In this document: positions 813 to 38,725 of the stretch, in pieces | Numbering within the stretch: the first letter of the stretch is position 1 | How the letters are laid out: each line of letters begins with the position of its first letter | Virus record (IMG/VR): IMGVR_UViG_3300032308_001953 | Span: 1 to 47,011 of that record | Origin: a virus | Strand: one strand, 5' to 3' | DNA length: 47,011 bases | Program-made: the position numbers and the translations under genes | Notes under the pieces: model-generated | Database searches by the model: none | Told to the model about the DNA's origin: nothing | Seen by the model: only the letters and a program-made list of their open reading frames with translations

Positions 813-2660
813 TCAGGTTGATTCTGGATTGTTACGTGCAAAGTTTGCTTGGCTGAACCTCATGCGATCCACAAATTTCATGCCTTGCCCCACATAGCCT
901 TCGTGCCCGGGCTCGTTGTTGATGCTGGCCTGTACATCGTGTGCTTGTGCATCCAACTGACGTACCAGCTCATTTTTAAGACTGCTTAGATCTAAAAAAG
1001 CCCGAAACACAGCGGCCACTGCGGCTTTGTTTTCGGTGGCCCATTCAAAAATACGCGGTGCCTTGGCAGGTTCTTTGTCCTGTACCCAAGGACCAAATCC
1101 TGCCACAAGATTATCAAAGCTGCCTTCTCTCACACGACTGTTGATATAGGTTTTCATCAGCTGTGGTAGATTTGTAATTTTTCTAGCACGTAGTTCTTGA
1201 GGATTAAACAGTCGATCAATGCCGGCACTGTGTGTGGTAGCAATGGTTTTCAAATCTTTGATTGTGGCGGCATTGAGTTTGATGTTGCGCGGTTCTTTGA
1301 GGCTAGGGTCCAGTATCAGCAGTCCGGGCACTGGGTTCAATGCGGCTGCTCTAATGGGCTGTGGAGCATCTCCCGGAGCACTCAATGCAGTGTGTATGGC
1401 CACTGCCACTTCGCTGTTGCCCACTTGCTTGCCCAAGGCAGAATTCACAGGAACAGAATATGTCACTGTGTTGGGTTGAAACACATAGGCTCCATTGTCC
1501 ACAGCAGGAGTGTTGCTGTACAGCAGATCTCCTTGTATGTAACCACGGAAGTCCTGAGGCACAGCGGCTCTCAACAATGGAAATAATTTTTGATACAGAG
1601 CCACAAGTTCGCCACGCTCGCCGCCGCGTTGAGCCATGATCTGTGCAATCTGTTGTGTGCTGGTGGCCAGTCCATCATAGCCCTTGGCCAGGAATCCTGC
1701 CTTGTCTGTGAGTACAAAATCACCGTTGGGTTTACGCCCAAATATAATGGCTGGTCTACCATCCCATTTTACTGTGTTGGTTTCGGGCTGTTGTGCCGCT
1801 GTTGTTATGCCGTTGAGTGCGCCAGCAATGCCGCGACTGCCCATGTCGAACACCATGTCCTCAGGGTGCTCAATACGAACCCCTTCCATGATGGCAACCA
1901 TGCCTTGATTCACAATTCGATCTCTTAATCGACTCAAAAAGTGTACATCATTTTCAGCCACAGGAGCGTCGGGATCGGGCAGGCCTTGGTCGGTCAGATA
2001 CTCTTTGAAGTCTTTGAGTTTGATGTCACGTTGAGGATCACGAGCCAGAGCCGCATAGATGGTCTCAACTGTGGACAGGTCTTTGCGTGTGGATTGTTTG
2101 TTGAGTATGGTGCGGGCCACTACATCTGGATCCTGACTGATCAACGCATTGGTGTTGCGATCAAACATGCCGTTGATGCCAACTTTTAATCCTTGAGTTT
2201 TGGCAATACTACTCATTAACACAGCACGTACCAGGCCTTTGTAGGCAGATCCTGTGCCTTGATTGTAGAAGAATGTGCCCCAGTCAAGGTTGGGCAAAAA
2301 CATAAAATCTGTTTGCACAAATCCTCGTCGGGGATCTCCGGCAATGGGTGTGCGCAAGTGAACTTCGCCGGCTTTCTTGACCCACTGTTTGGGATCTTGC
2401 CCGTGACTCTGTGCCCACTGAGTGAGCTTGGCGGCCAACTGTTCTTTTGACACTTGGCTGGCATCCACTGCCAGGTCCATGTCGCCCGAAGTTACTGCTT
2501 TGCCTGTTGATCCCAGCCAGTGTTCTCTTGGAAAATCTATGCCTGTGAGTTGCTCTATCCACATGATGGTGGCAGCAACATCGCTTTGATTTATTCTTTG
2601 TGTGAGTGGATTGCCGTCTGCATCTTTGAAGACGTTGCCACCTTCAGACAGTAGCCGCAC
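813..2660 (-). CDS. Nucleotidyltransferase / ligase-like KWDG protein
   Basis: A 615-residue protein with two separable nucleotide-transfer signatures. Residues about 50-121 hold G50-S51, then D60-M-D62, then D118 in QTDFMF, the GS/DxD/D pattern of Pol-beta-type nucleotidyltransferases. Around residue 298 is K-W-D-G, the motif I (KxDG) of covalent ligases and capping enzymes, followed by a strand resembling a later ligase motif (YIQGDLLY). Large KWDG proteins of unknown function occur in T4-like aquatic phages. The GTG start is chosen because AGGAGG lies five bases upstream (2666-2671); the ATG at 2699 has no such site. The start gives MRLLSEGG, ending in L-S-E/G, a prohead-protease-type site, so the protein may travel in the head. 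It overlaps the upstream gene by 17 bases. Activity is inference. Confidence 0.75.
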   Translation of the reverse strand: MRLLSEGGNVFKDADGNPLTQRINQSDVAATIMWIEQLTGIDFPREHWLGSTGKAVTSGDMDLAVDASQVSKEQLAAKLTQWAQSHGQDPKQWVKKAGEVHLRTPIAGDPRRGFVQTDFMFLPNLDWGTFFYNQGTGSAYKGLVRAVLMSSIAKTQGLKVGINGMFDRNTNALISQDPDVVARTILNKQSTRKDLSTVETIYAALARDPQRDIKLKDFKEYLTDQGLPDPDAPVAENDVHFLSRLRDRIVNQGMVAIMEGVRIEHPEDMVFDMGSRGIAGALNGITTAAQQPETNTVKWDGRPAIIFGRKPNGDFVLTDKAGFLAKGYDGLATSTQQIAQIMAQRGGERGELVALYQKLFPLLRAAVPQDFRGYIQGDLLYSNTPAVDNGAYVFQPNTVTYSVPVNSALGKQVGNSEVAVAIHTALSAPGDAPQPIRAAALNPVPGLLILDPSLKEPRNIKLNAATIKDLKTIATTHSAGIDRLFNPQELRARKITNLPQLMKTYINSRVREGSFDNLVAGFGPWVQDKEPAKAPRIFEWATENKAAVAAVFRAFLDLSSLKNELVRQLDAQAHDVQASINNEPGHEGYVGQGMKFVDRMRFSQANFARNNPEST

Positions 2661-3306
2661 CACCACCTCCTGTTGTATTTGAAGCCTTGTCCATGGCATC
2701 TTGTATTAGGGCATTGTGTAGATTGCTGAATGCCGCTACTTCGTTGCCAGCAGAATCGTACCAATGGCCTTTTTGAGTGCGCCAAGTGTAAACTTCTGTG
2801 GTGTTGTTTGATCCCACACGAGATATCACATCCACTGTGGTACCGTCAGGAATCACATACACAGGATTGCTTTGTATTTTTTGGTATGCAGGTATAAAGT
2901 AATCAGTGAGATATTTTTTAACTGCTTGTAAACTTTGCACAGCGACTCGAGCATCCAGTTCAGCTGTGTTGACATTGACCTTGGCTGTTTTGCTCAACCA
3001 AGCACGAAAATTGTTTCTGTAGGCATCATCGCTCATTGGGCCAGTGGTCTTTTCCAGAGCTTTAAAATACTTGTCCCATTCAGCAACCCAGGCATTGGCC
3101 AGGACTTCAAGATCGCGCCCTTTGCGAGCAGTTGACACTTTGTCAGCAAAGTCTTGATAGAATTTTGGAGTCAGTGCACCTTTTAATGCTCCTACCCTAC
3201 GACCAATACCAGACTTGGCTGCCAGGGCCTGGTCACGTTGAGCTTGTTGACCCAGTGCTCGAAGGTCGTCAAAAACTCCTTCATTGATTACATCTTTAAT
3301 TTTCAT
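2644..3306 (-). CDS. Head-type protein with capsid-targeting-like leader
   Basis: A 220-residue protein from the ATG at 3306; the longer reading frame upstream would run into the preceding gene. The N-terminus MKIKDVINEG ends in I-N-E before G, a T4 gp21-type processing site, and resembles the T4 internal-protein leader MKTYQEFIAE. The middle is helical and charged; the tail ends in four glycines. Its 3' end overlaps the GTG start of the nucleotidyltransferase/ligase-like gene by 17 bases, so the two are probably translated together and may act together inside the capsid. No family is recognised. Confidence 0.75.
   Translation of the reverse strand: MKIKDVINEGVFDDLRALGQQAQRDQALAAKSGIGRRVGALKGALTPKFYQDFADKVSTARKGRDLEVLANAWVAEWDKYFKALEKTTGPMSDDAYRNNFRAWLSKTAKVNVNTAELDARVAVQSLQAVKKYLTDYFIPAYQKIQSNPVYVIPDGTTVDVISRVGSNNTTEVYTWRTQKGHWYDSAGNEVAAFSNLHNALIQDAMDKASNTTGGGGAATV
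2661..2671 (-). promoter_or_regulatory. Ribosome-binding site deciding a GTG start
   Basis: AGGAGG (complement of 2666-2671) lies five bases before the third of three consecutive GTG codons, inside the end of the upstream gene. It favours initiation at 2660 over the ATG at 2699. Confidence 0.75.
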
Positions 3307-3541
3307 CGGTACGCCTGACACTGCGTGTAAATTTTGAAGCATCACGCAAGCGGATGGCATTCAACAGTTTACGCTGTAGATTTTCGGCTTGTTCTACGTC
3401 GTAGTTTTGCTCAATCTGCTCTAGCAGTCTGATGGCACTGGCAATGACATTGCTGGCACGATTTTCTATCACGTGCCGGTTGTCGCGCTCGATGTACATG
3501 CTGTCGAGTTCTTCTAATATACTACGGGTCTTTTTTTGCAT
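3296..3541 (-). CDS. Small conserved-type helical protein
   Basis: An 81-residue protein that is mostly helical and highly charged. The ATG at 3541 is preferred over the upstream in-frame start because AAAGG lies nine bases before it and a late-type promoter (3562-3569) lies just upstream; the longer form would begin inside that promoter. The N-terminus contains S-I-L-E-E, which only partly fits a prohead-protease site. It overlaps the next gene by 11 bases and opens a late transcription unit running to 813. Function unknown. Confidence 0.65.
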   Translation of the reverse strand: MQKKTRSILEELDSMYIERDNRHVIENRASNVIASAIRLLEQIEQNYDVEQAENLQRKLLNAIRLRDASKFTRSVRRTDEN

Positions 3542-3561
3542 AATGTCAAACCTTTGTAATA

Positions 3562-3569
3562 TATTTATT
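3562..3569 (-). promoter_or_regulatory. Late promoter AATAAATA
   Basis: The minus strand reads AATAAATA, fitting NATAAATA, 20 bases before the ATG at 3541 and overlapping the stop codon of the radical SAM gene. It would start a late unit covering 3541-813. Confidence 0.6.
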
Positions 3570-4569
3570 GGCTTTGTCCACAAACATCATTGCAAATAAT
3601 CAAGCGACCTTGTTCAAATGTGGGTATTTTCCAAGAATTTGCCACACTTGTAAACCAGGAAATGCATGATTCAATATCATGTTGCAAGGCGTTGTTGTGT
3701 GCAATCATTGGAGCAACTTGTGCGTTGGCTGCCTGATGATAATTTCCGTGTCCATACTCTTTGGGATTAAATCCTAAAAAACAACAAGGATACACATCTC
3801 CGGTGCTAGACACATAGATTGATTTGGTTTTTTCAACATGACACTGTATTTTACGTGGTTTGCGGCCTAACGTGATATCTTCAAGCAATACATCATTTGT
3901 TTTTCTACTGGAAAAATGTATTTTAAAACTAGTATCAGCTGGCTTTCCTATGACATGTGTGAGCTGGCCTTGTTTATTATAAACAGGAGCTTGGTCTCGA
4001 CCATGATTGTCCAAGCGAAACTTTTGAAAACCCATTTGTTCTGACAGCTCTTTTGCAGTAGCCCATTGATGCTGATTGTGATCAAACTCAATCATTTTCC
4101 ATGTAGCATGTCCGCCTGCGGCAATAAAGATACCAGCATTGCGGATCACAGTAGCATACATAGTATTTTGCCTGTGAAGACTGTGAGTGTCTTCCAAGCC
4201 ATCAATACAAAACAATACTTCAACGTTTAAATGCGCCAGATCTTCCCAAAAACTTTGATCTCTTGCACCGGCATTGGTACTAACTGAAATTTTTAATTTA
4301 GGGTTTGTTTCTCGAAAATATGTTAGAATGGGCACTGTGTCAGCGTTCATTACTGCATCGCCAAAATTGCCATTTACATAAACTTCGTTGATTCCTGATA
4401 AAAATTTTCTAGAAAATATTGTCTGTGCTTCTGCCAAAGTCATATCATGCTCAACATATCCATCGTTGTATGGATATCCATAAAAATTTCTAGGGCACAG
4501 CGGGCATGCCGCATTGCACCTGCTGGAAATTTCTAGATGAACATGCCGTACTTGATCAATGCTGTACAT
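3565..4569 (-). CDS. Radical SAM protein with SPASM-like C-terminus
   Basis: A 334-residue enzyme. Near residues 18-25 it has CNAACPLC, the CX3CX2C motif that binds the [4Fe-4S] cluster used to cleave S-adenosylmethionine. The C-terminal third has further cysteines, including YPCC after the segment IYVSSTGDV and a final CNDVC, typical of a SPASM/twitch auxiliary-cluster domain found in peptide- and protein-modifying radical SAM enzymes. The substrate is not evident. Its start overlaps the helicase gene stop (TAATG), making it the last gene of the overlapping operon that begins at 10040. The family call is firm; the role is unknown. Confidence 0.85.
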   Translation of the reverse strand: MYSIDQVRHVHLEISSRCNAACPLCPRNFYGYPYNDGYVEHDMTLAEAQTIFSRKFLSGINEVYVNGNFGDAVMNADTVPILTYFRETNPKLKISVSTNAGARDQSFWEDLAHLNVEVLFCIDGLEDTHSLHRQNTMYATVIRNAGIFIAAGGHATWKMIEFDHNQHQWATAKELSEQMGFQKFRLDNHGRDQAPVYNKQGQLTHVIGKPADTSFKIHFSSRKTNDVLLEDITLGRKPRKIQCHVEKTKSIYVSSTGDVYPCCFLGFNPKEYGHGNYHQAANAQVAPMIAHNNALQHDIESCISWFTSVANSWKIPTFEQGRLIICNDVCGQSQ

Positions 4570-5969
4570 TATCCGTTGGCTTTGATATTGCTCAACATTT
4601 TTTTCAGTGCCGAGCTTTGTACGTCTACAGAAACTTTGGCCACTTCATCATTGATGTCGTTGCCAGTGTCATTTACCTGACTCTTGGCCTTGATTGAATC
4701 GTAAATGCTGGGCTTTTTAACAAAGCCCGAACTCTGTTGTTGGTCTTCTCCAAGATCTCTAATACGCAATGTTTCAAGATCAAACTCCAGATCAACCTTT
4801 TGTCCCACGCCTGCGCTGGATCGAGTTTTCATCAACTGTATCTGATACCGGCCACGTTCACGCATGGCTCTTGATGTAAAGATACCAAACACATTGTCTG
4901 CTGTGTTGATCTTTGAAATACCACCTGAAATATGACTGTGATCAAACTCAATCTCTTCCACTGCCGCGCGATTTAACTGCGAAGCTGTGACAAACAACAC
5001 ATTAAGTTCTTTGGCCAAGTTACGTAATTCCTCCGAAACATACTTGTCTTTGACAAACAAGTCATTGGGACTAACCTTGGCACTCACAGGCATGATCAAA
5101 TCCAGATAATCCACACACAAAAATTCCACACGCTTGCCTGTTTTAACTTGTAGTTCTTTAAGATAAGCACGAATGTCGTTCACTGTACTTTGCGCTGGCA
5201 TGTATTTGATTTGTAGTGCGCCAGACTTCTTCTGCATCATCTTAACTTTCATTTCCACTGTGTCAATGTCTTTGAAAATTTCTTTAGATGATGTATTGGT
5301 CATCATTGAATCGATACGCATGGAGCAAAGCCCTTCACTAAGTTCCAGTGTAAGATAAACACCGTTGAGTCCTGCTTGTGCCCAGTTCACTGCTAAGTTT
5401 TGCATAAACAAACTTTTGCCCGAGCCAGACCCTCCTGCAAAGATCTGTAGCTCTCCGCGGTTGAATCCACCATACAGCAGTCTGTCTAGAGCAGGCCAGC
5501 CTGTGCTGTTCTGTCCGTTGTTGTTTTTCAGTGCCATAAGTCTGGCTCTGGGATCATCAAAATAGTCAACACCCAGGTCCTTGGTCAATGAAATTTGCAC
5601 AGCATCCTTGATTAGTTTTTCCACAGGGTCAAAGTTGCCTTTTTCCAACAGGTCTGCTGATTTGAGAATAGCACGTTCTAGTTCTTGTCTACGGGTAAAT
5701 GCTTCAAACTCTTCCATGAACCAATCAACATGCCCGTCATTTAAGTCTGGAATCTCTTGTAGGGAAACACCGGTAACCGCTGACACCTGTCTACGATCCG
5801 GCAGTGTTTTGTGATTGTCTGTGTGTTCCTTGATAAACTTGGCCGCTGATCGTAAACTGCGATCAAAATTTTCTTCGTTGTAAATATTTTGCACTCGCAC
5901 AAAGCTCTGTGCGTCTTGCATTATTATTTCTAAAAATAGCCGTTGTACTTCTACTGAATAGTCTTTCAT
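4569..5969 (-). CDS. gp41: Replicative DNA helicase (gp41, DnaB family)
   Basis: A 466-residue protein, close to the 475 residues of T4 gp41. The N-terminal part is helical. The RecA-type motor begins near residue 157 with Walker A GGSGSGKS (about 179-186) and a Walker B-type strand FLCVDYLDLI. Later segments (SQLNRAA, HISGG, and a C-terminal basic strand with MKTRSS) match DnaB-family helicases. In T4 the hexamer unwinds the fork and binds primase gp61; the primase gene here lies two genes upstream in the same operon. It overlaps its upstream neighbour by four bases (ATGA). Confidence 0.93.
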   Translation of the reverse strand: MKDYSVEVQRLFLEIIMQDAQSFVRVQNIYNEENFDRSLRSAAKFIKEHTDNHKTLPDRRQVSAVTGVSLQEIPDLNDGHVDWFMEEFEAFTRRQELERAILKSADLLEKGNFDPVEKLIKDAVQISLTKDLGVDYFDDPRARLMALKNNNGQNSTGWPALDRLLYGGFNRGELQIFAGGSGSGKSLFMQNLAVNWAQAGLNGVYLTLELSEGLCSMRIDSMMTNTSSKEIFKDIDTVEMKVKMMQKKSGALQIKYMPAQSTVNDIRAYLKELQVKTGKRVEFLCVDYLDLIMPVSAKVSPNDLFVKDKYVSEELRNLAKELNVLFVTASQLNRAAVEEIEFDHSHISGGISKINTADNVFGIFTSRAMRERGRYQIQLMKTRSSAGVGQKVDLEFDLETLRIRDLGEDQQQSSGFVKKPSIYDSIKAKSQVNDTGNDINDEVAKVSVDVQSSALKKMLSNIKANG

Positions 5970-6661: not shown

Positions 6662-7359
6662 TGCAGTTCTTTCATTCTGGGCAACAATGCTGTGTTGAAC
6701 CAATGTTGATTGCCTACTGCATCATGGTGCCCGTGCCAACCGTGTGTGTCAAAATCCACAGGACAATTTATGTCTTTATTCACGCTGTAATAAGTGTTTT
6801 CAAACAACATACTGTGCGGATCAGCTAAAAAGCGTTGTTGAATACTACTCAAGGTTGTCCATTCAGTTTTGGGTTGAAATGGCTCAGCTAAGTTCACAAT
6901 GAGAACCTTGGGTGTCCATCCAAGGATATATTGCTTTAACAAAAATAATTCACGTAGAACCTGTGCTTCTTGCCAACTACGATTCCAGGACATCACATAA
7001 GACTGCCCAAGTTGATGCGTTGTAACTTGCCCTAGCCCGCCATGCTCTCTCAACATCTGTTGATCCATTGGCGTTAGATTTCCAAAAAATTTGTGAACAC
7101 TAGGTTCACGACCGTCGGGGTCATATACAGTAAATCGTTCAATAGGTGGTACACCAATCACAACATAATCTTCTGGAGAGAATCTTGCGCTTGCAACAAT
7201 CACATGCGAGATACTGTCTACGTTGTTTCCGGGCCATGAATAATTTTCTACTGTGTCTACTTGCAAGTGTGTGGCCATTAGTCCCCACCAACTATCTTTA
7301 GGATCCACACAGAATCCCGGTGTGCTGTAACTGTCTCCGTAAACAATCAATCTAGACAT
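6652..7359 (-). CDS. SGNH/GDSL-hydrolase-like protein 2
   Basis: A 235-residue protein beginning MSRLIVYGDSYSTPG, a canonical block I with G-D-S at residues 8-10, and carrying D-T-H-G-W-H-G-H-H near the C-terminus as block V. No signal peptide or membrane segment. It overlaps the primase gene by eight bases and the first SGNH gene by ten, so all are translationally linked. The substrate is unknown; esterases of this fold remove acyl groups from sugars and lipids, which would fit the many glycosyltransferases in this genome, but that link is inference. Confidence 0.75.
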   Translation of the reverse strand: MSRLIVYGDSYSTPGFCVDPKDSWWGLMATHLQVDTVENYSWPGNNVDSISHVIVASARFSPEDYVVIGVPPIERFTVYDPDGREPSVHKFFGNLTPMDQQMLREHGGLGQVTTHQLGQSYVMSWNRSWQEAQVLRELFLLKQYILGWTPKVLIVNLAEPFQPKTEWTTLSSIQQRFLADPHSMLFENTYYSVNKDINCPVDFDTHGWHGHHDAVGNQHWFNTALLPRMKELQWV

Positions 7360-8311
7360 TGATTTTCCTTAACAAATTTTTTCGAGCCATCTCTATTTTG
7401 ATTTTGCTGGTATTTCTTGTTTGAAAAATGCTCAACAGTGTGGCAACTTTTCCATATTTTTTCACAGCATCATTGACATCTTTTACATCACTGGGCCATG
7501 CGGGCATGCTCACTGCCCATCCTAATTCTATGGCACGATCTACCAACTTCATGCCAGCTTCGTCTTGATCTGGAACCACAGTAACTTCTCTTTCTAAAGA
7601 TCTTATCAATCGTACCTGAGCATCATTGATTTCAGCATGCAACACTGCCAGACCGTTGATGCTGAGAGCATCAAATACTCCTTCCATGACCAGCACATGC
7701 TTCCAACTATCTTGCTGTAAATCTGTGCCGAACACGTATCCTGGTTGTATGTCTTGAATATACTTTGGGAGTCTGTTGTCAAGAAATCTGGTGGTATGTC
7801 CTACTACTTGTCCGTCATGCGTGAACGGAATTACTATTCCAGGACGTGGCATGGTTTTATAGAATAGTGGATAGTCCGTGGGTATGCCGCGATCATTGAG
7901 ATACTGTTGTGCCGTTTCAGTGAGTGGCTGTGTGACTGCTGGCAAGTCCCGGTCTTCAAATTCTATTCCTTGTAGTCGTTGCACTACCTGTTGGCGATCA
8001 CTGAGTATGCCTTCAATGCTTTTGTGTCGGAGACTTTCTAGGTTAATGCGCTCAATCTCGTTACGATCTACGTTGAGCCAGCCCAGTAGCTTTCTAGCTT
8101 TGAATGACAAGTTACGACCCAACACAAAGCTGGCAGTGAATCCACAATTGAAACAATGATAACTCCAACCCTGGTCTGATGTTTTAAGACCGCCACGTTG
8201 TCTGCGGTCTGCACTCTCACTGTTGTGTACACAACAAGGAGCATTGAAGCTGACCCAGCCCGAACTGGAGCTTTTTCGTTTGGCCGGCAAGTAGGAGAGT
8301 ATGTCTATCAC
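7352..8311 (-). CDS. gp61: DNA primase (gp61 type)
   Basis: A 319-residue protein. The N-terminus has a zinc-binding module with C26, C27 and H29 followed by CFNC (53-56), used by DnaG-type primases to recognise the template. A TOPRIM catalytic domain follows, with VMEGVFDALSI (about 209-219, the conserved Glu) and VVPDQDEAG (about 245-253, the DxD). T4 gp61 has a similar size and domain order and works with gp41. The gene is flanked by two SGNH-like genes and overlaps both (8 and 4 bases). Confidence 0.92.
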   Translation of the reverse strand: MIDILSYLPAKRKSSSSGWVSFNAPCCVHNSESADRRQRGGLKTSDQGWSYHCFNCGFTASFVLGRNLSFKARKLLGWLNVDRNEIERINLESLRHKSIEGILSDRQQVVQRLQGIEFEDRDLPAVTQPLTETAQQYLNDRGIPTDYPLFYKTMPRPGIVIPFTHDGQVVGHTTRFLDNRLPKYIQDIQPGYVFGTDLQQDSWKHVLVMEGVFDALSINGLAVLHAEINDAQVRLIRSLEREVTVVPDQDEAGMKLVDRAIELGWAVSMPAWPSDVKDVNDAVKKYGKVATLLSIFQTRNTSKIKIEMARKNLLRKINV

Positions 8312-10059: not shown

Positions 10060-10067
10060 TATTTATG
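10060..10067 (-). promoter_or_regulatory. Late promoter CATAAATA
   Basis: The minus strand reads CATAAATA, fitting NATAAATA. Predicted +1 is about 10054, leaving a 13-base leader that contains AGGA before the ATG at 10040. It overlaps the start of the divergent plus-strand gene at 10065. Confidence 0.6.
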
Positions 10068-10442
10068 GGCACAGAGATCTTTGCAAAAATAGCAGAACGT
10101 TATCCTTTTATAACGTTTTGCACCTACGCAGGCAACGAATATGTGGGTGTGGTACAGAATCGAGATGATGCTGTTACAACCATCTATGACTTTGGCAACA
10201 TACAGCATGCCGAGCTCAAAAAGTTGTTTTTAGAACTGGCCAATGTTTGGTGGTGGGAATCAAATCGTAGCATACCCATCAACATATTTCTCAAACATGA
10301 CTGGGAAATTTTTAAACCTTATCTACGCACCTTTGTCAACAAAGATCTCGAAATACTGCACGGACCTTGTACCAGCTTGATTGAAATTGCTCGTAAAAAA
10401 AGCAAACGAAAATCAATCACTCTTGTGCGAAAAATGTATTAA
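10065..10442 (+). CDS. Conserved-type hypothetical protein
   Basis: A 125-residue protein with aromatic-rich segments (a WWW cluster near residue 62) and a strongly basic C-terminus (KKSKRKS). No domain is recognised. The basic tail would suit nucleic-acid binding, but this is only composition. It is divergent from the baseplate-type gene, with a 24-base gap containing TATAAT (10041-10046) that could be its promoter, and its 3' end overlaps the mini-DnaE gene on the other strand by 30 bases. Confidence 0.65.
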   Translation: MGTEIFAKIAERYPFITFCTYAGNEYVGVVQNRDDAVTTIYDFGNIQHAELKKLFLELANVWWWESNRSIPINIFLKHDWEIFKPYLRTFVNKDLEILHGPCTSLIEIARKKSKRKSITLVRKMY

Positions 10443-10988
10443 ATTCATGTGCAGGGCTACCAATTGTGCGTAGCCCACTGCATGACTCTTCTTGAAAAAG
10501 TAACTTTCGTCGTCTGGTGTGGTCCAGATATCTTGTGCAATCTTTGCCCATCCACCTGCTGCCAGATGACGCTTGGCTGGGCGTATCACAGCAAGCAACA
10601 TGGCCATTCTAGGTATGCTATTGGGTTGTAGTTGTTTGACAATGTCATAATGATTTCCAATATGCACAATTTTTTTACAAAATTCTGGATCTTGTAATCT
10701 ATCCCAAGGCACAGGAGCACTCAGCATTTCATTGTAATGTGCTTGATCTTGGATCAACTGATACACTGTCATGTTCAGCAGATCTATTTTGAAGTACCCG
10801 CGTTGTTCAGCTTCCTGATAGTCAATGGCCGCACATGCATTCACGGGGTCCTGTGGAATGTCTGTGACATACACTCCTGAATTGTGACGACGTATTTTGC
10901 CATCAACTGTTTGTCGTGCTGGTGTACACCGTATAAGTGATAGCACCTGATCTCTGTTGGCAAAATCAATGTCAATGTCTGCACTCAT
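10413..10988 (-). CDS. Miniature DnaE-like (C-family polymerase) protein
   Basis: A 191-residue protein starting at the ATG in a TAATG junction with the upstream gene (AGG seven bases before). It retains dispersed motifs of bacterial DNA polymerase III alpha. D4-I-D6-I-D8-F then RDQV matches the palm motif D-x-D-x-D-F...RDQV. RRHNSGVYV (33-41) matches the HAGGVV motif. GYFKIDLLN (64-72, D69) matches the third catalytic aspartate motif GLxKFDFLG. FFKKSHAVGYA near residue 170 matches FNKSHAxAYA. The PHP domain, fingers and C-terminal domains are missing; DnaE proteins are over 1000 residues. Its neighbours are a zinc-finger protein and gp62. Polymerase activity is doubtful; an accessory or regulatory role is possible. 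Confidence 0.75.
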   Translation of the reverse strand: MSADIDIDFANRDQVLSLIRCTPARQTVDGKIRRHNSGVYVTDIPQDPVNACAAIDYQEAEQRGYFKIDLLNMTVYQLIQDQAHYNEMLSAPVPWDRLQDPEFCKKIVHIGNHYDIVKQLQPNSIPRMAMLLAVIRPAKRHLAAGGWAKIAQDIWTTPDDESYFFKKSHAVGYAQLVALHMNLIHFSHKSD

Positions 10989-11668
10989 TACCAACCTGCT
11001 TTCTTTAATAGGTCTTTGACGTACTCTTGATCAGCTGGATAGTCTTGAAATTTCTTCTGCCAAAATTCAGGATCGATCCAAGACCATAAAATTTTAGTTT
11101 GGTCAGGATTCATTTCATCTAAAAACTTTTGCCCACTTTCACAGTTGTATACAATCCACGCACTGATACGTCCTGTTGATATAGCATAAGTCACAGCGTT
11201 GTCGTTGCCGTACCTCATGATATCTTGTGCTGGCTGTCCTGTTTTTTCTGACCAAGTCAGACTGTATTCTATTGCTCGTGTCAGTGCATCTGTGACATTC
11301 TCCCGACGCAAGTAATCTGTGAGATACTCTGTGTACACAGTGTCACGGCACCAGTGATCAATTTTTTTATTTTTTTCTACTACCCAGTCAACAAATCTTG
11401 CTGTGTTCACAGCGTTGATTGCAATACAATAACGACCAAACTTGACAAATGCACGATAATAAGGCGAGCGGGCAAAATCATCAAAGGTTTTTAATTTGGC
11501 ACTGCCTTGTGTCATTTCATAAAAACGCAGATAAGCCTGAAGTCCTAATTGTACTCCACGCTCACTTTGTTCTTGAAATCTGCGTTTTTGTTCGCATAGA
11601 TGTACAGCAAGACTGGACTCTCGCTGAAACGTTTTTTCACAGAATTGACAAGTATATGTGTTGGTCAC
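10988..11668 (-). CDS. Zinc-finger protein coupled to the mini-DnaE gene
   Basis: A 226-residue protein. The first 25 residues form a C2H2/C2HC-type finger: CQFC, then FQRESSLAVHLC. The rest is helical and rich in aromatic residues, without a recognised domain. The start is GTG at 11668, directly before the finger; no clear Shine-Dalgarno is visible, so the start is less certain. The stop overlaps the start of the mini-DnaE gene (TAATG), implying joint production and perhaps a complex. A single N-terminal finger suggests DNA or protein binding in replication; this is inference from location. Confidence 0.7.
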   Translation of the reverse strand: MTNTYTCQFCEKTFQRESSLAVHLCEQKRRFQEQSERGVQLGLQAYLRFYEMTQGSAKLKTFDDFARSPYYRAFVKFGRYCIAINAVNTARFVDWVVEKNKKIDHWCRDTVYTEYLTDYLRRENVTDALTRAIEYSLTWSEKTGQPAQDIMRYGNDNAVTYAISTGRISAWIVYNCESGQKFLDEMNPDQTKILWSWIDPEFWQKKFQDYPADQEYVKDLLKKAGW

Positions 11669-11681
11669 TATTTTAATACTA

Positions 11682-12848
11682 TTATTTGTCCGAAAACCAA
11701 TCAGTTGATGTTCCTAGCCTAGAAATATCATTGGTCACACAATGAATGCCACAGTCCCAGAAATATTTGTGACGGAATGGTACCACATGAACTTCAATAC
11801 CGTGCCGGGCACAGGCAGCCTCAACTTGATCATTATGCGTTGACACCACAATGTTTTTTGGATCTACAATCAAAATATTTACATCAAACACTGTCTCACT
11901 TACTTGTCCAACCCATTCATCAAAATAATGATCTACCATGTCCACAAGATTGTTATCTTGCTCAAATCCTGGCATGAACCAGCGACCTTTGTTGCGCTTC
12001 ATTGAAAATTCAAACTCACGCATGTGACTATAGTTGCTGGGTGGCAAATACACTACTTCCCAATCAGGAAATGTATCTGCATAGGTAGGTATATCATTGA
12101 GACTGATAATCAAGCCTGGAGTCACAGGACAGTACACAGCATCACCGTGACCACCAGAGTTGACCACACGGTTTACAGTGCGAGGGAACAGTTGATTGAC
12201 CTGATCAAGTATAGCTTGTTTGTCGTCGTGATACGTTTGTGTGGCAAAATATAAATTTTTTCCAATGCGGCTTACAAAACACCCATTGATGAAATCTAGA
12301 TCGGTGTAAACAATGTCATTGCCTTGTTGCTTTATTTCGTCAAACACATGATTGTAAAAGTTTAATTTACCATCAAGATGTTGCTGATCTGTTTTGCAGA
12401 ACTGTGCAAACTTTTCCTGTACCTCAGTGGCATAGTTGGGCCATGCTTCATAAAAATCTCCTGGCCGCACATAGTCAGGACAATGTGCAGGTTTATTTTG
12501 TCTATAAAACACACTCCACGCATGACTGGCATTGGGTACCTGCGGAACCCAAAAACGATCTTCAATCATCAAGAAGTAATCTCTGGGTGCAGTGGGTGGT
12601 TGCACCCACTTGCCATTGATATATAAATCTTCCAAGTTTTTAGGAAATTCAGGACGATGTATTTTAACACCAAACTTTTCAGTCAACAGTTTGATCAGAC
12701 CTTGGTAGTCTTCTTCTGTTTCTTCGGCCAACTTCTCAAAACGATTACGTGTGTTGGCATCCTTGATCCAAGAATAAAATTCCGGAGGATATGTTTTTCC
12801 TACCAGACAAACTTTCAACGGATCCCAATGTTGGTAAACTGAATACAT
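11682..12848 (-). CDS. Amidinotransferase-like (pentein) enzyme
   Basis: A 388-residue protein with the landmarks of glycine/inosamine amidinotransferases. They are W-D-P-L-K at the start, PTAPRDYFL (85-93), a D185-F segment in DLDFINGC, GGHGDAVYCPV with H234 and D236, and FWDCGIHCVTNDISR with the likely nucleophile C370. The Asp-His-Cys arrangement and spacing fit the pentein fold, which transfers or removes amidino groups from arginine-type substrates. It lies in the replication operon between gp62 and the zinc-finger/mini-DnaE pair. A role in small-molecule supply or in modifying DNA or protein is possible; no substrate can be read from the sequence. Confidence 0.8.
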   Translation of the reverse strand: MYSVYQHWDPLKVCLVGKTYPPEFYSWIKDANTRNRFEKLAEETEEDYQGLIKLLTEKFGVKIHRPEFPKNLEDLYINGKWVQPPTAPRDYFLMIEDRFWVPQVPNASHAWSVFYRQNKPAHCPDYVRPGDFYEAWPNYATEVQEKFAQFCKTDQQHLDGKLNFYNHVFDEIKQQGNDIVYTDLDFINGCFVSRIGKNLYFATQTYHDDKQAILDQVNQLFPRTVNRVVNSGGHGDAVYCPVTPGLIISLNDIPTYADTFPDWEVVYLPPSNYSHMREFEFSMKRNKGRWFMPGFEQDNNLVDMVDHYFDEWVGQVSETVFDVNILIVDPKNIVVSTHNDQVEAACARHGIEVHVVPFRHKYFWDCGIHCVTNDISRLGTSTDWFSDK

Positions 12849-13285
12849 TATTCTCTTCCTTGATCTCTGAGCAGTTGTTTTAGTTGTTTTTTGTCAACTA
12901 ACTTACTGAGTGTGTCAATGTCCTGCATCTTGCTGTATGGATACAGATCCATTAACATTTTTTTAATCTCGTTGCTGCCAGTTTCTTTTTTCTTGGGAGC
13001 TATCCATTGATGCCGATGCGATCCCATGCCCGGGCTCACTGAGGTGGCCATGAGCCATTGCAGTTTAGGGTGTTTGTTAACTGTGAAAAAATGTTTGTTC
13101 AATCTTTCATTGGTGGCAACAAGATAAAACTCTTGCAGTTCTGCAGAACCTTGCACAGCAGATCCCCAACGTATCATAAGATAGTTTGAAAACTTTTTGC
13201 GTTCTTCATCAGTCAATGTGTCGTAGAATGTTCTGTCCTTGCGATCAAACACACTCATTTCATTTTGTATTGACAGTTTTTCCAT
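12848..13285 (-). CDS. gp62: Clamp-loader small subunit (gp62-like)
   Basis: A 145-residue protein, shorter than T4 gp62 (187). The order of features fits: a segment with F-x-x-Y-L near residue 35, ATNERLNKHFF, KHPKLQWLMATSV (T4 has a similar YLMAAV strand), then a lysine-rich region and a C-terminal helix ending KQLLRDQG. In T4, gp62 joins four gp44 ATPase subunits to load the gp45 clamp. The gp44 and gp45 genes are not in this window. Location beside UvsW and other replication genes supports the call. The similarity is moderate and read by eye. Confidence 0.65.
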   Translation of the reverse strand: MEKLSIQNEMSVFDRKDRTFYDTLTDEERKKFSNYLMIRWGSAVQGSAELQEFYLVATNERLNKHFFTVNKHPKLQWLMATSVSPGMGSHRHQWIAPKKKETGSNEIKKMLMDLYPYSKMQDIDTLSKLVDKKQLKQLLRDQGRE

Positions 13286-13794: not shown

Positions 13795-14399
13795 TATACA
13801 ATATAATTTCTGTAGCCGCGACCTAATATTACACCATAATTTTCAGCGGCCAATATACCAAATCCTTGTCCTATCAAGTAAGGAACCACAGCACCACCTT
13901 TGCCAATAAACACTCCATTATATTCGTAGGTGTCGTCAACACAGACCACACAACGGTCCGTCATGTGTGGCAATAGATTAACCATCTGAGTGATATGAGC
14001 TGTTTGAGAGTTGATATTATTCATAACCAATCCTTGTTGCTGATACCATTGCACTTGGTTTTGAATCATTTGTTGTTGTCTATCTGTGCGCCAATCCCAA
14101 TCAAAGTTGTCTAAATAAAGAACTCGTATTTTAGAGTCTTGATATTTTACGGTCCATTGTGTTCCTTCGGCCTGCACAAATTCTACTAGATGTGTATGAT
14201 CAGATAAAACTGTTTTACGCAATCTAAGTTCAGCACCCGGATCAAGATCCACAGTGATAAATCTCATGTCATGTGTGTTGGCTAGATCCGCAAAGTAGGC
14301 ACTACTGCCTTCCCAACGATCACTGCCAATTTCCACTATAACCTCTCCTGGGAATGCTCCTGATAAATGTTGACCTACCTGTTGATACAACTTACCCAT
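13794..14399 (-). CDS. Class I SAM-dependent methyltransferase
   Basis: A 201-residue protein. VEIGSDRWEGSS (about 22-33) is the glycine-rich SAM-binding motif I, FITVDLDP is the acidic end of strand 2, and YLDNFDWDW and CVVCVDDTYEYNG provide the later strands. The pattern resembles Methyltransf_24-type small-molecule and glycan methyltransferases rather than DNA methylases: no NPPY or PC motif is present. It overlaps UvsW by eight bases and the next gene by one, so it is inside the replication operon. Target unknown. Confidence 0.75.
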   Translation of the reverse strand: MGKLYQQVGQHLSGAFPGEVIVEIGSDRWEGSSAYFADLANTHDMRFITVDLDPGAELRLRKTVLSDHTHLVEFVQAEGTQWTVKYQDSKIRVLYLDNFDWDWRTDRQQQMIQNQVQWYQQQGLVMNNINSQTAHITQMVNLLPHMTDRCVVCVDDTYEYNGVFIGKGGAVVPYLIGQGFGILAAENYGVILGRGYRNYIV

Positions 14400-15861
14400 G
14401 CGTCATCCACTCTAGCTTTTCTTGTGTAAATGGATAACGGGCTTCTTTGTAAAACTGTTTGCGTTTGGTCAAGTGACGTTTGGCAAATTTACAAGTTGAA
14501 GTTATGTCCCAGATTTGGACGTGATCTTTGTCTTCTGCTTTTCTAATACCTCGCCCAATCGATTGTATAACTCGGACAAAGCTCTTTCCGGGTTCCACAA
14601 GCACCAGATTGAAAATCCTAGGAATGTTAATACCAACAGCAGCCACGCCATAGGTAGCAACAATAATTTTATCAGTAGCTTCAGCCACTTCGTCATATTC
14701 ATCTTGACGCTCCTTTGCTTTGGTGGCGCCCGACACAAATACAGCACGTTCGCCCAGTCGCTTGACCAACTCTTGGCCGGCGGTGATACGATCTACCAGC
14801 ACCAGAGTATTACCTGTTTCATTGACTTGTGCAATTACATCAGCCATGGCATCTAGTCTGCCAGACTCCTCCAGGAGATATTTTAATTCGCTTTGATAGT
14901 TGGTATAGTCTACATGATCTACCAACTGTACAATATTCACGTGACACTGTGCCAGCACACCTCGGTCTTGTAGTTCTGCGGCAGCCAGACGACTTACCAC
15001 AGGTCCCAGGCTCACATGTATGGCTTGAAATTCAAAGTCCTCTTTGGGTATGGTTCCTGTGAGTCCCCAGCGAATTGGCACTTCAGCCATGACCCCTGTA
15101 AGCAAGGTTTTAAGAGCATCGGCCTTGGCCATGTGTACTTCATCCACAATCACACAGACCACACCTTCCAAGAACTCACCTATAGTGACATCTGCTGATT
15201 GATTTTTTGTGTTCTTTAGAAGTACGTTAAGACTTTGCCAAGTGCAAATGGTATGCTGACGTCCAAACTCTTTACGATCTCCAAAGAACACACCTACATC
15301 TAGTTCCATGTTGATGTAGTCTCGTTCCGTTTGTGTTACCAGGCTCTTGTTGGGTACTATAACAATGCTACGACCATAAGGAGTGACAGCGTGACTCAGT
15401 GCGGCTGTCATGATAGTTTTACCTGCACCGGTGGCTACTTCTTGTAGGCACTGCGGGTTGGCCAAAAAGTTGTTGACAATGTCTACTTGATAGTCACGTA
15501 ACATCACAGGTTCACCGGCATTAGGGTGACTCTTGGGCCAGGCAATGTCTTTGAATGTGTCTTCTCGTACTTGCTCAAACTCAAAGGTAGTAGAATACTC
15601 ACGACGATCATCTAGTTCAATATCGTAGTTGTACTCTTCCAAAATAGGAATAATCTCGGGCAATAGATTCACGTAGGTACTACCACCCAGTTGAAAGTAA
15701 CTGACTTTGCCATCCCACCGACCCAGTCTCACTGCAGGTAGGTATCGGGCGTAAGGAACATCATATTTAAACTTGTTCACTAGGGCACGCCTAGCATCTA
15801 GTTCCAGTCCTTCAATTTTGACGTTGACTTCGTCTGTTATTATAAGTCGTGCGTTTCTCAT
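14392..15861 (-). CDS. uvsW: UvsW DNA/RNA helicase
   Basis: A 489-residue superfamily 2 helicase. The N-terminal domain has the UvsW pattern (ALVNKFKYDVPYARYLP, then GRWDGKVSYF). Motor motifs follow: VATGAGKT (Walker A), IVDEVHMAK (DEVH box), GLTGTIP, and RVIQSIGRGIRK (motif VI). In T4, UvsW unwinds branched recombination intermediates and ends origin-dependent initiation. The ATG at 15861 is preferred over 15879 because the -10 box (15868-15873) lies between them; transcription would begin at or next to the ATG, leaving little or no leader. Confidence 0.92.
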   Translation of the reverse strand: MRNARLIITDEVNVKIEGLELDARRALVNKFKYDVPYARYLPAVRLGRWDGKVSYFQLGGSTYVNLLPEIIPILEEYNYDIELDDRREYSTTFEFEQVREDTFKDIAWPKSHPNAGEPVMLRDYQVDIVNNFLANPQCLQEVATGAGKTIMTAALSHAVTPYGRSIVIVPNKSLVTQTERDYINMELDVGVFFGDRKEFGRQHTICTWQSLNVLLKNTKNQSADVTIGEFLEGVVCVIVDEVHMAKADALKTLLTGVMAEVPIRWGLTGTIPKEDFEFQAIHVSLGPVVSRLAAAELQDRGVLAQCHVNIVQLVDHVDYTNYQSELKYLLEESGRLDAMADVIAQVNETGNTLVLVDRITAGQELVKRLGERAVFVSGATKAKERQDEYDEVAEATDKIIVATYGVAAVGINIPRIFNLVLVEPGKSFVRVIQSIGRGIRKAEDKDHVQIWDITSTCKFAKRHLTKRKQFYKEARYPFTQEKLEWMTHG

Positions 15862-15867
15862 TGTTTT

Positions 15868-15895
15868 ATTATACAGCATTTATTTAACAAGTCAA
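15868..15895 (-). promoter_or_regulatory. Sigma70-type promoter of the uvsW operon
   Basis: On the minus strand TTGACT (15890-15895) and TATAAT (15868-15873) are separated by 16 bases. The -35 box overlaps the T-tract of the terminator just upstream. The predicted start coincides with the uvsW ATG at 15861. TATAATAA is also a near-match to the late element, so late use is possible. Confidence 0.75.
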
Positions 15896-24004: not shown

Positions 24005-24690
24005 TTGATTCGTTGCTGACAGTATTCAGTTAGAATACGTTCGCGGTGCCACTCATTGGCAAAGTTGCCTTGAGTAGAAAACTCATGAAAGCACGGCGTT
24101 CCCAGTGTGTAGTGTACCAGTTTTGCTTGAGGGTTTGGCTCATACTCAACATCTAGCCAGTTCCACTCTGGAGGCAGTTCTCCAATGCGATCATTGTCTA
24201 ACCACGAGAACCTGTGTAGTTCAGCGCCGGTTGCATGTTGGACGAACTCGGGAGTAAGTTTCCGGTTGGGAAAGCTACTACAATTCCACAAAATAACACT
24301 ACTCCAATTTTTTCGAGGATAGTCTTCATTTTTTGCTCCTAGATATTTTTCTGTCATCTTTGTTTTGTAGTCATGCTTGACTACCTGTACATCTTTGTAG
24401 GGATCTCTTAAATCCCAAAGTTCAGCAATGTCCCCACGAACAATCATGTCCCCATCAATGAATATTGCGTGACCTTTCCATCCCATGAGATGTGGTACTA
24501 AGAATCTAGTGTAGATAAAATGATTTGATCCATCGTTGTGAGTTTCTGTGTAGTCTTTAAACAAGTTCAGTGCCACTGGATGTATGGCCAGTGGCCGGGT
24601 AGAATGCCTTATAATTGAATTTACACAGGTATGATACGCAATGGCTTCTCTAGGATCGTAGCCTACAAAGATGGGAATGATGTCTGTCAT
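24001..24690 (-). CDS. Glycosyltransferase-like protein, GT-A
   Basis: A 229-residue protein. It begins IPIFVGYDPREAIAYHTC, a start typical of a GT8-like group found in phages and proteobacteria. HAIFIDGDMIVRGDI contains the DxD, and WSSVILWNC and PEWNWL are further group landmarks. The start overlaps the nucleotidyltransferase-cupin gene by four bases (ATGA), so the activated donor enzyme and the transferase are probably made together. Confidence 0.78.
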   Translation of the reverse strand: MTDIIPIFVGYDPREAIAYHTCVNSIIRHSTRPLAIHPVALNLFKDYTETHNDGSNHFIYTRFLVPHLMGWKGHAIFIDGDMIVRGDIAELWDLRDPYKDVQVVKHDYKTKMTEKYLGAKNEDYPRKNWSSVILWNCSSFPNRKLTPEFVQHATGAELHRFSWLDNDRIGELPPEWNWLDVEYEPNPQAKLVHYTLGTPCFHEFSTQGNFANEWHRERILTEYCQQRIN

Positions 24691-25451
24691 TGTCGTTCTA
24701 TATCAGTTTCATCGCAACGATCACCATACTGTATTTCTATTACTTTCAATGATTCCGTACCTTCGTTGGCCAGCTGATGCCACTCGCGACGGTTGATTAC
24801 TATCATTTGATTCTGTGAATACCGACCGTGTAGCTCTGCATCTGAAGATCTGTTTATGGTATAAAGCGTGGCTTCACCTTCGCTGACAAACCAAAGTTCG
24901 CCTCGATCTTCATGTCGTTGCATGCTCAGGGTCTTGCCCGGATCTACGGTAAGTTCTTTGAGTTTAACGTTGCGATTGGGCTCGTGCAACACACGATAAT
25001 ACCCCCAAGGTCTTTCTGTCTTTGGTGCTCGCCACTCTTGTAAAATCCAGCTACTGGAGTTGGCTTTGTCGAATCCGCCTATACCAAACACAAACTTTAA
25101 ATTAGAATCCACAACATCCATCTCGGGAATATTTTGATCTGTGCGATCTCCACCATTGGCAAATATCAATTCTGCTCGAGGGTAATGAGCTCGGACTTGC
25201 TGTATAAAATGTCGAGCCGATCCGTCGGTGTCGTCAAAGGTGTAAACTTCATCTACCATGGCTAGATTGTTGACAACGCACAGGCGCTCGTTCCAGGGCA
25301 TGAATGCTCGACCCTTTTTACGCTCTAACCATTCGTCAGAGTTTAGGCCAACAATCAACATGTCGCCCAAGGTTCGTGCCTCTTTGAAATATGCTATGTG
25401 TCCGGAATGTACAGGATCAAAGCCTCCGGTGACTAATACAATTTTGTTCAT
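24687..25451 (-). CDS. Nucleotidyltransferase-cupin fusion
   Basis: A 254-residue protein with two domains. Residues 1-140 form a cytidylyltransferase-type nucleotidyltransferase: VTGGFDPVHSGHI (T/HxGH motif, about 6-18), IVGLNSDEW, and SSSWILQEW in place of the ISSTxI motif. Residues about 148-254 form a cupin like the C-terminal mannose-6-phosphate isomerase domain: RPWGYYRVL, then TVDPGKTLSMQRHEDRGE with metal-type His/Glu. One protein could thus both isomerise and activate a sugar. The ATG at 25451 lies exactly five bases after TATAAATA, so the longer start (25472) is upstream of transcription and the message looks leaderless. Confidence 0.82.
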   Translation of the reverse strand: MNKIVLVTGGFDPVHSGHIAYFKEARTLGDMLIVGLNSDEWLERKKGRAFMPWNERLCVVNNLAMVDEVYTFDDTDGSARHFIQQVRAHYPRAELIFANGGDRTDQNIPEMDVVDSNLKFVFGIGGFDKANSSSWILQEWRAPKTERPWGYYRVLHEPNRNVKLKELTVDPGKTLSMQRHEDRGELWFVSEGEATLYTINRSSDAELHGRYSQNQMIVINRREWHQLANEGTESLKVIEIQYGDRCDETDIERQ

Positions 25452-25456
25452 GCAAG

Positions 25457-25464
25457 TATTTATA
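25457..25464 (-). promoter_or_regulatory. Late promoter TATAAATA, leaderless geometry
   Basis: An exact TATAAATA on the minus strand, then CTTGC, then the ATG at 25451. T4 late spacing puts +1 on the A of the start codon. No Shine-Dalgarno is present. Confidence 0.75.
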
Positions 25465-25489
25465 ATACACACATATTATGGAAATGGTA

Positions 25490-38290: not shown

Positions 38291-38725
38291 TTATTGGCAC
38301 CAGCTTTGTTTAGCGTCACCGTAGTATTCACGGGCAAAGCCGTTGGCAATCAATTGAGCACGTAGACTCTGCCCATTTAGAATAATGTCGCCCAGTACAC
38401 GACCACCAAACTTGTCCCAACCGTAGAGAACGACCTGTCGCTGTTGGCTGGCGTTAATAAGACCTTTAGTGAAAACGCTGGCGGCTTCACCTCGTTGCTT
38501 TTCGCTGTCACACTGTCCGCGGAAGCCTTTTTCAGGAGTGTCAACTCCGTAGACTCGTACCGCAAGTTCGGGCTTGAGAGGTGCAGGTAGAAAGGGTGCG
38601 GCGATAACAACTGTATCGCCATCTGTTACTCTGACAATTTGTGCATCGTACAACACGCCGTTGGGTGTTTTTTGTGCCATGGCCAAGCATGGAATCAGTA
38701 GTAGAGTGAGTAGTAGTTTTTTCAT
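38291..38725 (-). CDS. Exported thermonuclease-like (SNase) protein
   Basis: A 144-residue protein. Residues 1-17 (KK, then a leucine-rich core, then AMA) form a signal peptide, with probable cleavage before Q18. The mature part is a staphylococcal-nuclease fold: RVTDGDTVVI, then VRVYGVDTPEKG with the catalytic Arg and Asp, GEAAS with a Glu, and DKFGGRVLGDI with the second Arg. The catalytic residues all appear present, so it should cut DNA or RNA outside the cytoplasm. Export would protect the phage genome and could degrade incoming or environmental DNA. Confidence 0.88.
   Translation of the reverse strand: MKKLLLTLLLIPCLAMAQKTPNGVLYDAQIVRVTDGDTVVIAAPFLPAPLKPELAVRVYGVDTPEKGFRGQCDSEKQRGEAASVFTKGLINASQQRQVVLYGWDKFGGRVLGDIILNGQSLRAQLIANGFAREYYGDAKQSWCQ

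Follow-up and report, generated by a model that had tools for sequence, protein, structure and literature searches.

How can a viral protein of 191 residues carry the catalytic motifs of the bacterial replicase DNA polymerase III alpha (Pol III alpha, DnaE) at about one sixth of its size? The question was raised by one open reading frame in the window, which here means the whole stretch of viral DNA that was analysed (47,011 nucleotides, IMG/VR record IMGVR_UViG_3300032308_001953). The reading frame lies on the minus strand, from the ATG at 10988-10986 to the TGA at 10415-10413 (Table 1). As reported in a preliminary description, the three catalytic aspartates and the other motifs were found in order: DIDIDF (residues 4-9), RDQV (12-15), HNSGV (35-39), GYFKIDLLN (64-72) and FFKKSHAVGYA (164-174). 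That description considered a miniature polymerase, an accessory replication factor, a decoy for the host and a decaying relic.

Table 1. Positions of the C-half, its motifs and the genes discussed in the text (window coordinates unless another sequence is named).
Feature	Position	Strand	Remarks
C-half of split minimal Pol III alpha	10413..10988	-	191 aa; PHROG 11778; AlphaFold; alignment to E. coli Pol III alpha
DIDID, residues 4-8	10965..10979	-	D4, D6, D8 = E. coli D401, D403, D405
HNSG, residues 35-38	10875..10886	-	palm strand after thumb in full-length DnaE
KID, residues 67-69	10782..10790	-	D69 = E. coli D555; K67 = K553 position
RPAK, residues 136-139	10572..10583	-	counterpart of FRPG segment, DnaE fingers
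FKKSHAVGY, residues 165-173	10470..10496	-	fingers motif; H169 = E. coli H760, Y173 = Y764
226-aa gene, upstream of C-half	10988..11668	-	PHROG 11058; TAA overlaps C-half ATG (TAATG)
125-aa gene	10065..10442	+	PHROG 11637; convergent; overlaps C-half tail by 30 nt
DnaG-like (Toprim) primase	7352..8311	-	PHROG 47 at 4.8e-37; Toprim_2
DnaB / T4 gp41-like replicative helicase	4569..5969	-	PHROG 19 at 1e-68
Radical-SAM-like gene	3565-4569		junction with dnaB is the site of the single-chain DnaE in relatives
UvsW-type helicase	14392..15879	-	Pfam ResIII/Helicase_C; synteny; in conserved block
145-aa conserved block gene	12848..13285	-	synteny
Single-chain DnaE, G001	L094:1432-3135		
Single-chain DnaE, G005	L095 ~1288-3144		
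Single-chain DnaE, G061	G061:93358-95085		
Single-chain DnaE, G079	G079 around 24591-25220		

The relationship to DnaE was borne out by profile and fold comparisons. The 191-aa protein, hereafter the C-half, matched PHROG 11778 ('DNA polymerase') at 8.2e-56 over residues 3-185. As a single-sequence query it matched no Pfam domain, including PF07733, the family for which a search had been suggested, and a PDB sequence search with the same single sequence was also without a match, so that a profile of 67 sequences was needed. This profile of homologues matched nine PDB sequences, every one a Pol III alpha (best E-value 0.0014), through four segments in collinear order, which in the numbering of E. 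coli span approximately 399-421 (DFDVDF), 538-559 (KFDFL), 596-641 (..FRPG) and 750-767 (GYGFNKSHSAAY). One scan confirmed 307 relatives of the C-half in IMG/VR viral contigs, 63 isolate or GenBank phage records held a relative, and more than 560 relatives were among the matches listed in a profile scan. The relatives in contigs and phage records, the PHROG 11778 match and the restriction of the PDB profile matches to Pol III alpha show that the motifs are not a chance match. Phage DnaE-like polymerases of PHROG 405 and PHROG 11165 have the C-family ancestry in common with the C-half and gave weak profile matches at the motifs (0.006 and 0.01, respectively); unlike the C-half, they are single chains of about 780-1190 residues.

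Structure prediction followed by superposition on the DnaE palm, as proposed in the preliminary description, gave a clear match. The AlphaFold model of the C-half had a pLDDT of 94.0 and a pTM of 0.85, and the best 15 Foldseek matches were all Pol III alpha or PolC. With VIA-align, residues 1-190 of the model were superposed, over 183 aligned residues, on E. coli Pol III alpha 399-781 (Z 8.8, rmsd 4.2), and the Z scores were 9.8 for residues 460-838 of the Taq ternary complex and 9.6 for PolC, while unrelated folds gave 3 or below. The palm fold of Pol III alpha is therefore present, and the coverage identifies the chain as the palm's second part, joined to a fingers module of reduced size. 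The earlier statement that the PHP domain and the fingers are absent was correct for PHP but only in part for the fingers, as FFKKSHAVGYA was aligned by the 67-sequence profile with E. coli F756-Y764, part of the fingers.

Conservation at the active site was complete in an alignment of 161 C-half homologues, which was assembled without motif-based filtering. Residues D4, D6, D8, H35, G38, K67 and D69 were identical in all 161 rows; R136, P137 and K139 of RPAK were kept in all 160 rows with letters at these positions, as were H169 and Y173 of FKKSHAVGY in all 159. In C-family polymerases D401, D403 and D555 are absolutely conserved, and the position of D405 is Asp in DnaE and Asn in PolC (PMC3919608, from which the E. 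coli active-site numbering was taken). The C-half has the first three as D4, D6 and D69, and shares with bacterial DnaE and PolC the palm fold and the equivalents of K553, H760 and Y764; by the invariant D8 it sides with DnaE and not with PolC.

The C-half nevertheless differs from DnaE and PolC in what it lacks. The chain starts at E. coli 399, so that PHP and the N-terminal palm are missing; it also has no thumb, has lost much of the fingers, and contains nothing from beyond approximately E. coli 781, including HhH2, OB and the clamp- and tau-binding parts, and a complete core of palm, thumb and fingers is thus not contained in one chain. PHP and (HhH)2 domains, nearly universal among C-family DNA polymerases (PMC3919608), are both wanting, as no Pfam domain was matched and the model stops at E. 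coli 781. The complete one-chain miniature polymerase envisaged at first was consequently not supported: in related phages the N-terminal portion of the palm, GxGRGS loop included, is encoded by a separate gene (PHROG 11127, hereafter the N-half), and the position of the cut is constant. The N-half was found by PF07733 in phages Phosso, Atu_ph07, Cassandra, GAP32 and Vibrio phage 2.275.O. Its AlphaFold model (pLDDT 94.1) covered E. coli Pol III alpha 278-392 with residues 79-177 (Z 9.6; M. tuberculosis DnaE1, Z 12.0). All 80 N-half reading frames scanned stop 35-41 residues past GxGRGS, at '..EFL(K/R)', and all of the 80 C-half reading frames first scanned start a few residues ahead of DxDxD, with '(P)DIDID'; the C-half of the window starts at the same place as the homologues scanned. 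No fusion of the two was present among these 80 C-half and 80 N-half reading frames. By their boundaries and the coverage of the predicted models, the two halves thus tile the DnaE palm without overlap, with the cut between FL and PD.

The two halves also occur together. An N-half was present in 59 of the 60 listed GenBank phage records with a C-half, the lone exception being PP728206, a record of 109 kb whose relatives are about 346 kb. Conversely, the only GenBank record with an N-half and no C-half was LC768485 (86 kb). Both halves are carried by the complete 141-kb Alishewanella phage Slicko01, which indicates that the pair is not restricted to jumbo phages. In the Slicko01 sequence (OQ508956.1), DNA polymerase and DNA polymerase I annotations were seen in several short pieces (484-1374, 2491-5129 and 140130-141377), and other polymerases may be split in this phage too. 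A C-half without an N-half, which speaks against obligate pairing, was found in G076 (280 kb, with a B-family polymerase), G075 (199 kb) and G061 (156.6 kb), possibly incomplete records. An N-half without a detectable C-half was seen in the large contigs G043 (359 kb), G041 (191 kb) and G047 (156 kb), which are also possibly incomplete. The PF07733 search of the window gave no match, and no N-half was found in this 47-kb fragment.

A split of this kind has been described before. Group 2.2 jumbo phages were reported to carry a family B polymerase together with a minimal split Pol III alpha, made up of an NTP-binding protein and a Mg2+/template-binding protein whose genes lie far apart, and a role in one strand or in repair was suggested from sequence (Iyer et al. 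2021, PMC7824862). A truncated Pol III alpha of 172 aa had been noted earlier in the CBB paper (PMC5259590), and a Pol III alpha subunit was noted for Atu_ph07 (PMC6102473). No later or experimental work on the split polymerase was found in the open-access literature. The C-half of the window is a well-kept gene of this published kind, with the same family (PHROG 11778, alongside 11127), domain content, split point and type of phage, one with T4-like replication genes. It differs in that neither an N-half nor a B-family polymerase was found in the window, a fragment of 47 kb, and in that a near relative, G001, has a single-chain PHP-less DnaE instead. New here are the definition of the partner with counts, the presence of the family in a 141-kb phage, an exchange at the Arg390 position and what looks like an alternation of the N-half with a single-chain DnaE.

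On sequence and model grounds, the C-half is probably the half that bears the catalytic carboxylates in a minimal C-family (DnaE-type) nucleotidyltransferase of two subunits, which would be auxiliary to the main replicase. It would supply the Mg2+-binding aspartates, on the second half of a Pol-beta-like palm, and cut-down fingers with their histidine, and the separate PHROG 11127 protein of about 175 aa, encoded elsewhere in related genomes, would contribute the palm's first half, whose GxGRGS loop binds phosphate. From the tiling of the two folds we infer that the two chains assemble into a palm-plus-mini-fingers enzyme of approximately 360 residues, without PHP, thumb, HhH2, OB or clamp- and tau-binding parts. 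Without a thumb, clamp or tau contacts, such an enzyme would be distributive, of low processivity, and auxiliary. It might serve in primer extension, gap filling or recombination-linked synthesis, and would work beside the main phage replicase with the adjoining primase, DnaB and UvsW. The C-half may also be an accessory replication factor, as considered in the preliminary description. If active, the pair would be smaller than any known C-family polymerase and would have an active site naturally divided between two proteins, showing which parts of the bacterial replicase are needed for the chemistry. To this idea, published in 2021 and apparently never put to a test, exact boundaries and partner genes in isolated phages of laboratory bacteria are now added.

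The gene neighbourhood of the C-half is conserved. The order uvsW, 145-aa gene, 226-aa gene, C-half, convergent 125-aa gene, primase and DnaB was common to the window, G001, G061, G008, G079, Atu_ph07, Phosso, Cassandra, GAP32 and Vibrio phage 2.275.O; the G002 contig begins within the 226-aa gene and agrees from that point onwards. This conserved order ties the C-half to replication and recombination, but does not tell the pathway. The 226-aa gene also precedes the C-half in L081-L085, L286, L292, L412 and L413; the two genes are possibly translationally coupled, and the 226-aa product is a candidate DNA-binding partner. The 125-aa gene was convergent with the C-half in all genomes compared, with a tail overlap of usually 4-30 nt. 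The N-terminal part of the 226-aa protein reads like a C2H2 zinc finger.

An unexpected pattern emerged in relatives of the window with a different polymerase. In G001, G005, G061 and G079 a single-chain, PHP-less DnaE of approximately 567 aa was found (PF07733 at 6e-40, fingers PF17657 at 1e-13), 5-8 kb from the C-half. In the first three its gene comes immediately downstream of dnaB, on the opposite strand; in G079 it is also near dnaB, but on the same strand. The enzyme has 134 relatives in viral contigs, and a position near dnaB is common to many of the records. Neither an N-half nor a B-family polymerase was found in these four records, which are fragments or possibly incomplete. Records with the single-chain DnaE were without an N-half and, where tested, without a B-family polymerase; 17 of 20 also held the C-half, and its key residues were all kept in the 13 of these records that were checked (13/13). 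A B-family polymerase was encoded by all 16 large records with both halves, and a second PF07733 gene above the cut-off was present in none of them. For G061, the absence of a B-family polymerase was judged by PF00136. When T4 proteins were compared by phmmer with the reading frames of G061 and the window, only gp41, gp61 and UvsX were recovered, so the missing matches to gp43-47 carry little weight. A scan of the large G061 reading frames for a hidden polymerase returned matches to tail, packaging or unknown families only, and no end repeats were found in G061. DNA polymerase A was detected in none of 25 contigs of the clade.

The nearest relative of the window with enough sequence is G001, with a C-half 82% identical, and G079 is more distant. 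In the window itself dnaB abuts the radical-SAM-like gene at 4569, with no single-chain DnaE between them, and no candidate of the size of a B-family polymerase was present among the reading frames of the 47-kb fragment. The same dnaB junction in G002, whose C-half is 81% identical, was also without the single-chain DnaE, and no PF07733 match was obtained there. In the C-half tree, where support was low, N-half and single-chain types were mixed within the window's clade, and G050, with an N-half and a B-family polymerase, fell inside it; label counts on this poorly supported tree had each type arising more than once. It is conceivable, as a tentative proposal, that in part of the clade the N-half and the B-family replicase were replaced by the single-chain DnaE of about 567 aa, while the C-half persisted, its active site intact, in the role of partner or auxiliary of that enzyme. 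This would mean a T4-like replisome in which a minimal bacterial-type polymerase is the driving enzyme and a half-polymerase has switched partners.

These records also bear on a more general alternative, that the C-half needs no N-half and acts alone or in partnership with the phage's replicative polymerase (B-family in most, the single-chain DnaE in some close relatives). The intact key residues of the C-half in G001, G005, G061 and G079, where no N-half was found and the single-chain DnaE is close by, favour such independence, as does the frequent presence of the C-half beside a single-chain DnaE. However, the records concerned are fragments or of uncertain completeness, isolates practically always pair the two halves, and the palm half with GxGRGS is missing from the C-half, so we consider independent action rather unlikely.

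The two halves might also form a pseudoenzyme, a non-catalytic DnaE-derived scaffold for the binding of nucleotide or primer-template, with a regulatory role in the phage replisome. The loss of the thumb and most of the fingers is in keeping with this, and so is the reversed charge in all 80 N-halves at the position of E. coli Arg390, which was located by counting ungapped from GxGRGS: the residue was Glu in 78 and Asp in 2. The single-chain DnaE of the relatives had Arg there in 75 of 75. As E. coli Arg390 helps, with K553, to hold the incoming triphosphate, the acidic residue could mean altered or lost chemistry, and the pair may work unlike DnaE or may lack catalysis. A scaffold has no obvious need, however, for metal-binding aspartates and equivalents of K553, H760 and Y764 that are invariant across very divergent homologues, and a pseudoenzyme appears unlikely, less probable than either a two-subunit enzyme or a C-half acting without the N-half.

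The proposal that the C-half is a decoy for the host clamp or clamp loader draws only on its likeness to the host polymerase. It is very improbable, as the match stops at E. coli 781, ahead of the clamp- and tau-binding regions of the polymerase, and a decoy would not explain why the catalytic aspartates are invariant. The dN/dS comparison across relatives that had been suggested gave a ratio of approximately 0.05 between the window and its three nearest relatives, where dS was saturated (2 or more); pairs with less saturation gave 0.03-0.2. These low ratios, which indicate purifying selection, and the invariant residues exclude decay of the gene, and the earlier judgement that the motifs are too well kept for a pseudogene proved right. 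A relic, for which only the small size compared with DnaE speaks, was rejected as next to impossible on the grounds of these ratios, the hundreds of intact homologues with the same length and boundaries and the conserved gene order.

Two other genes of the window were noted, both on the minus strand. At 24687-25472, a cytidylyltransferase-like domain is fused to a mannose-6-phosphate isomerase-type cupin, and the fusion gene is surrounded by reading frames resembling sugar-transfer genes. The gene at 38291-38725 encodes a small protein that has a staphylococcal-nuclease domain and, apparently, a signal peptide.
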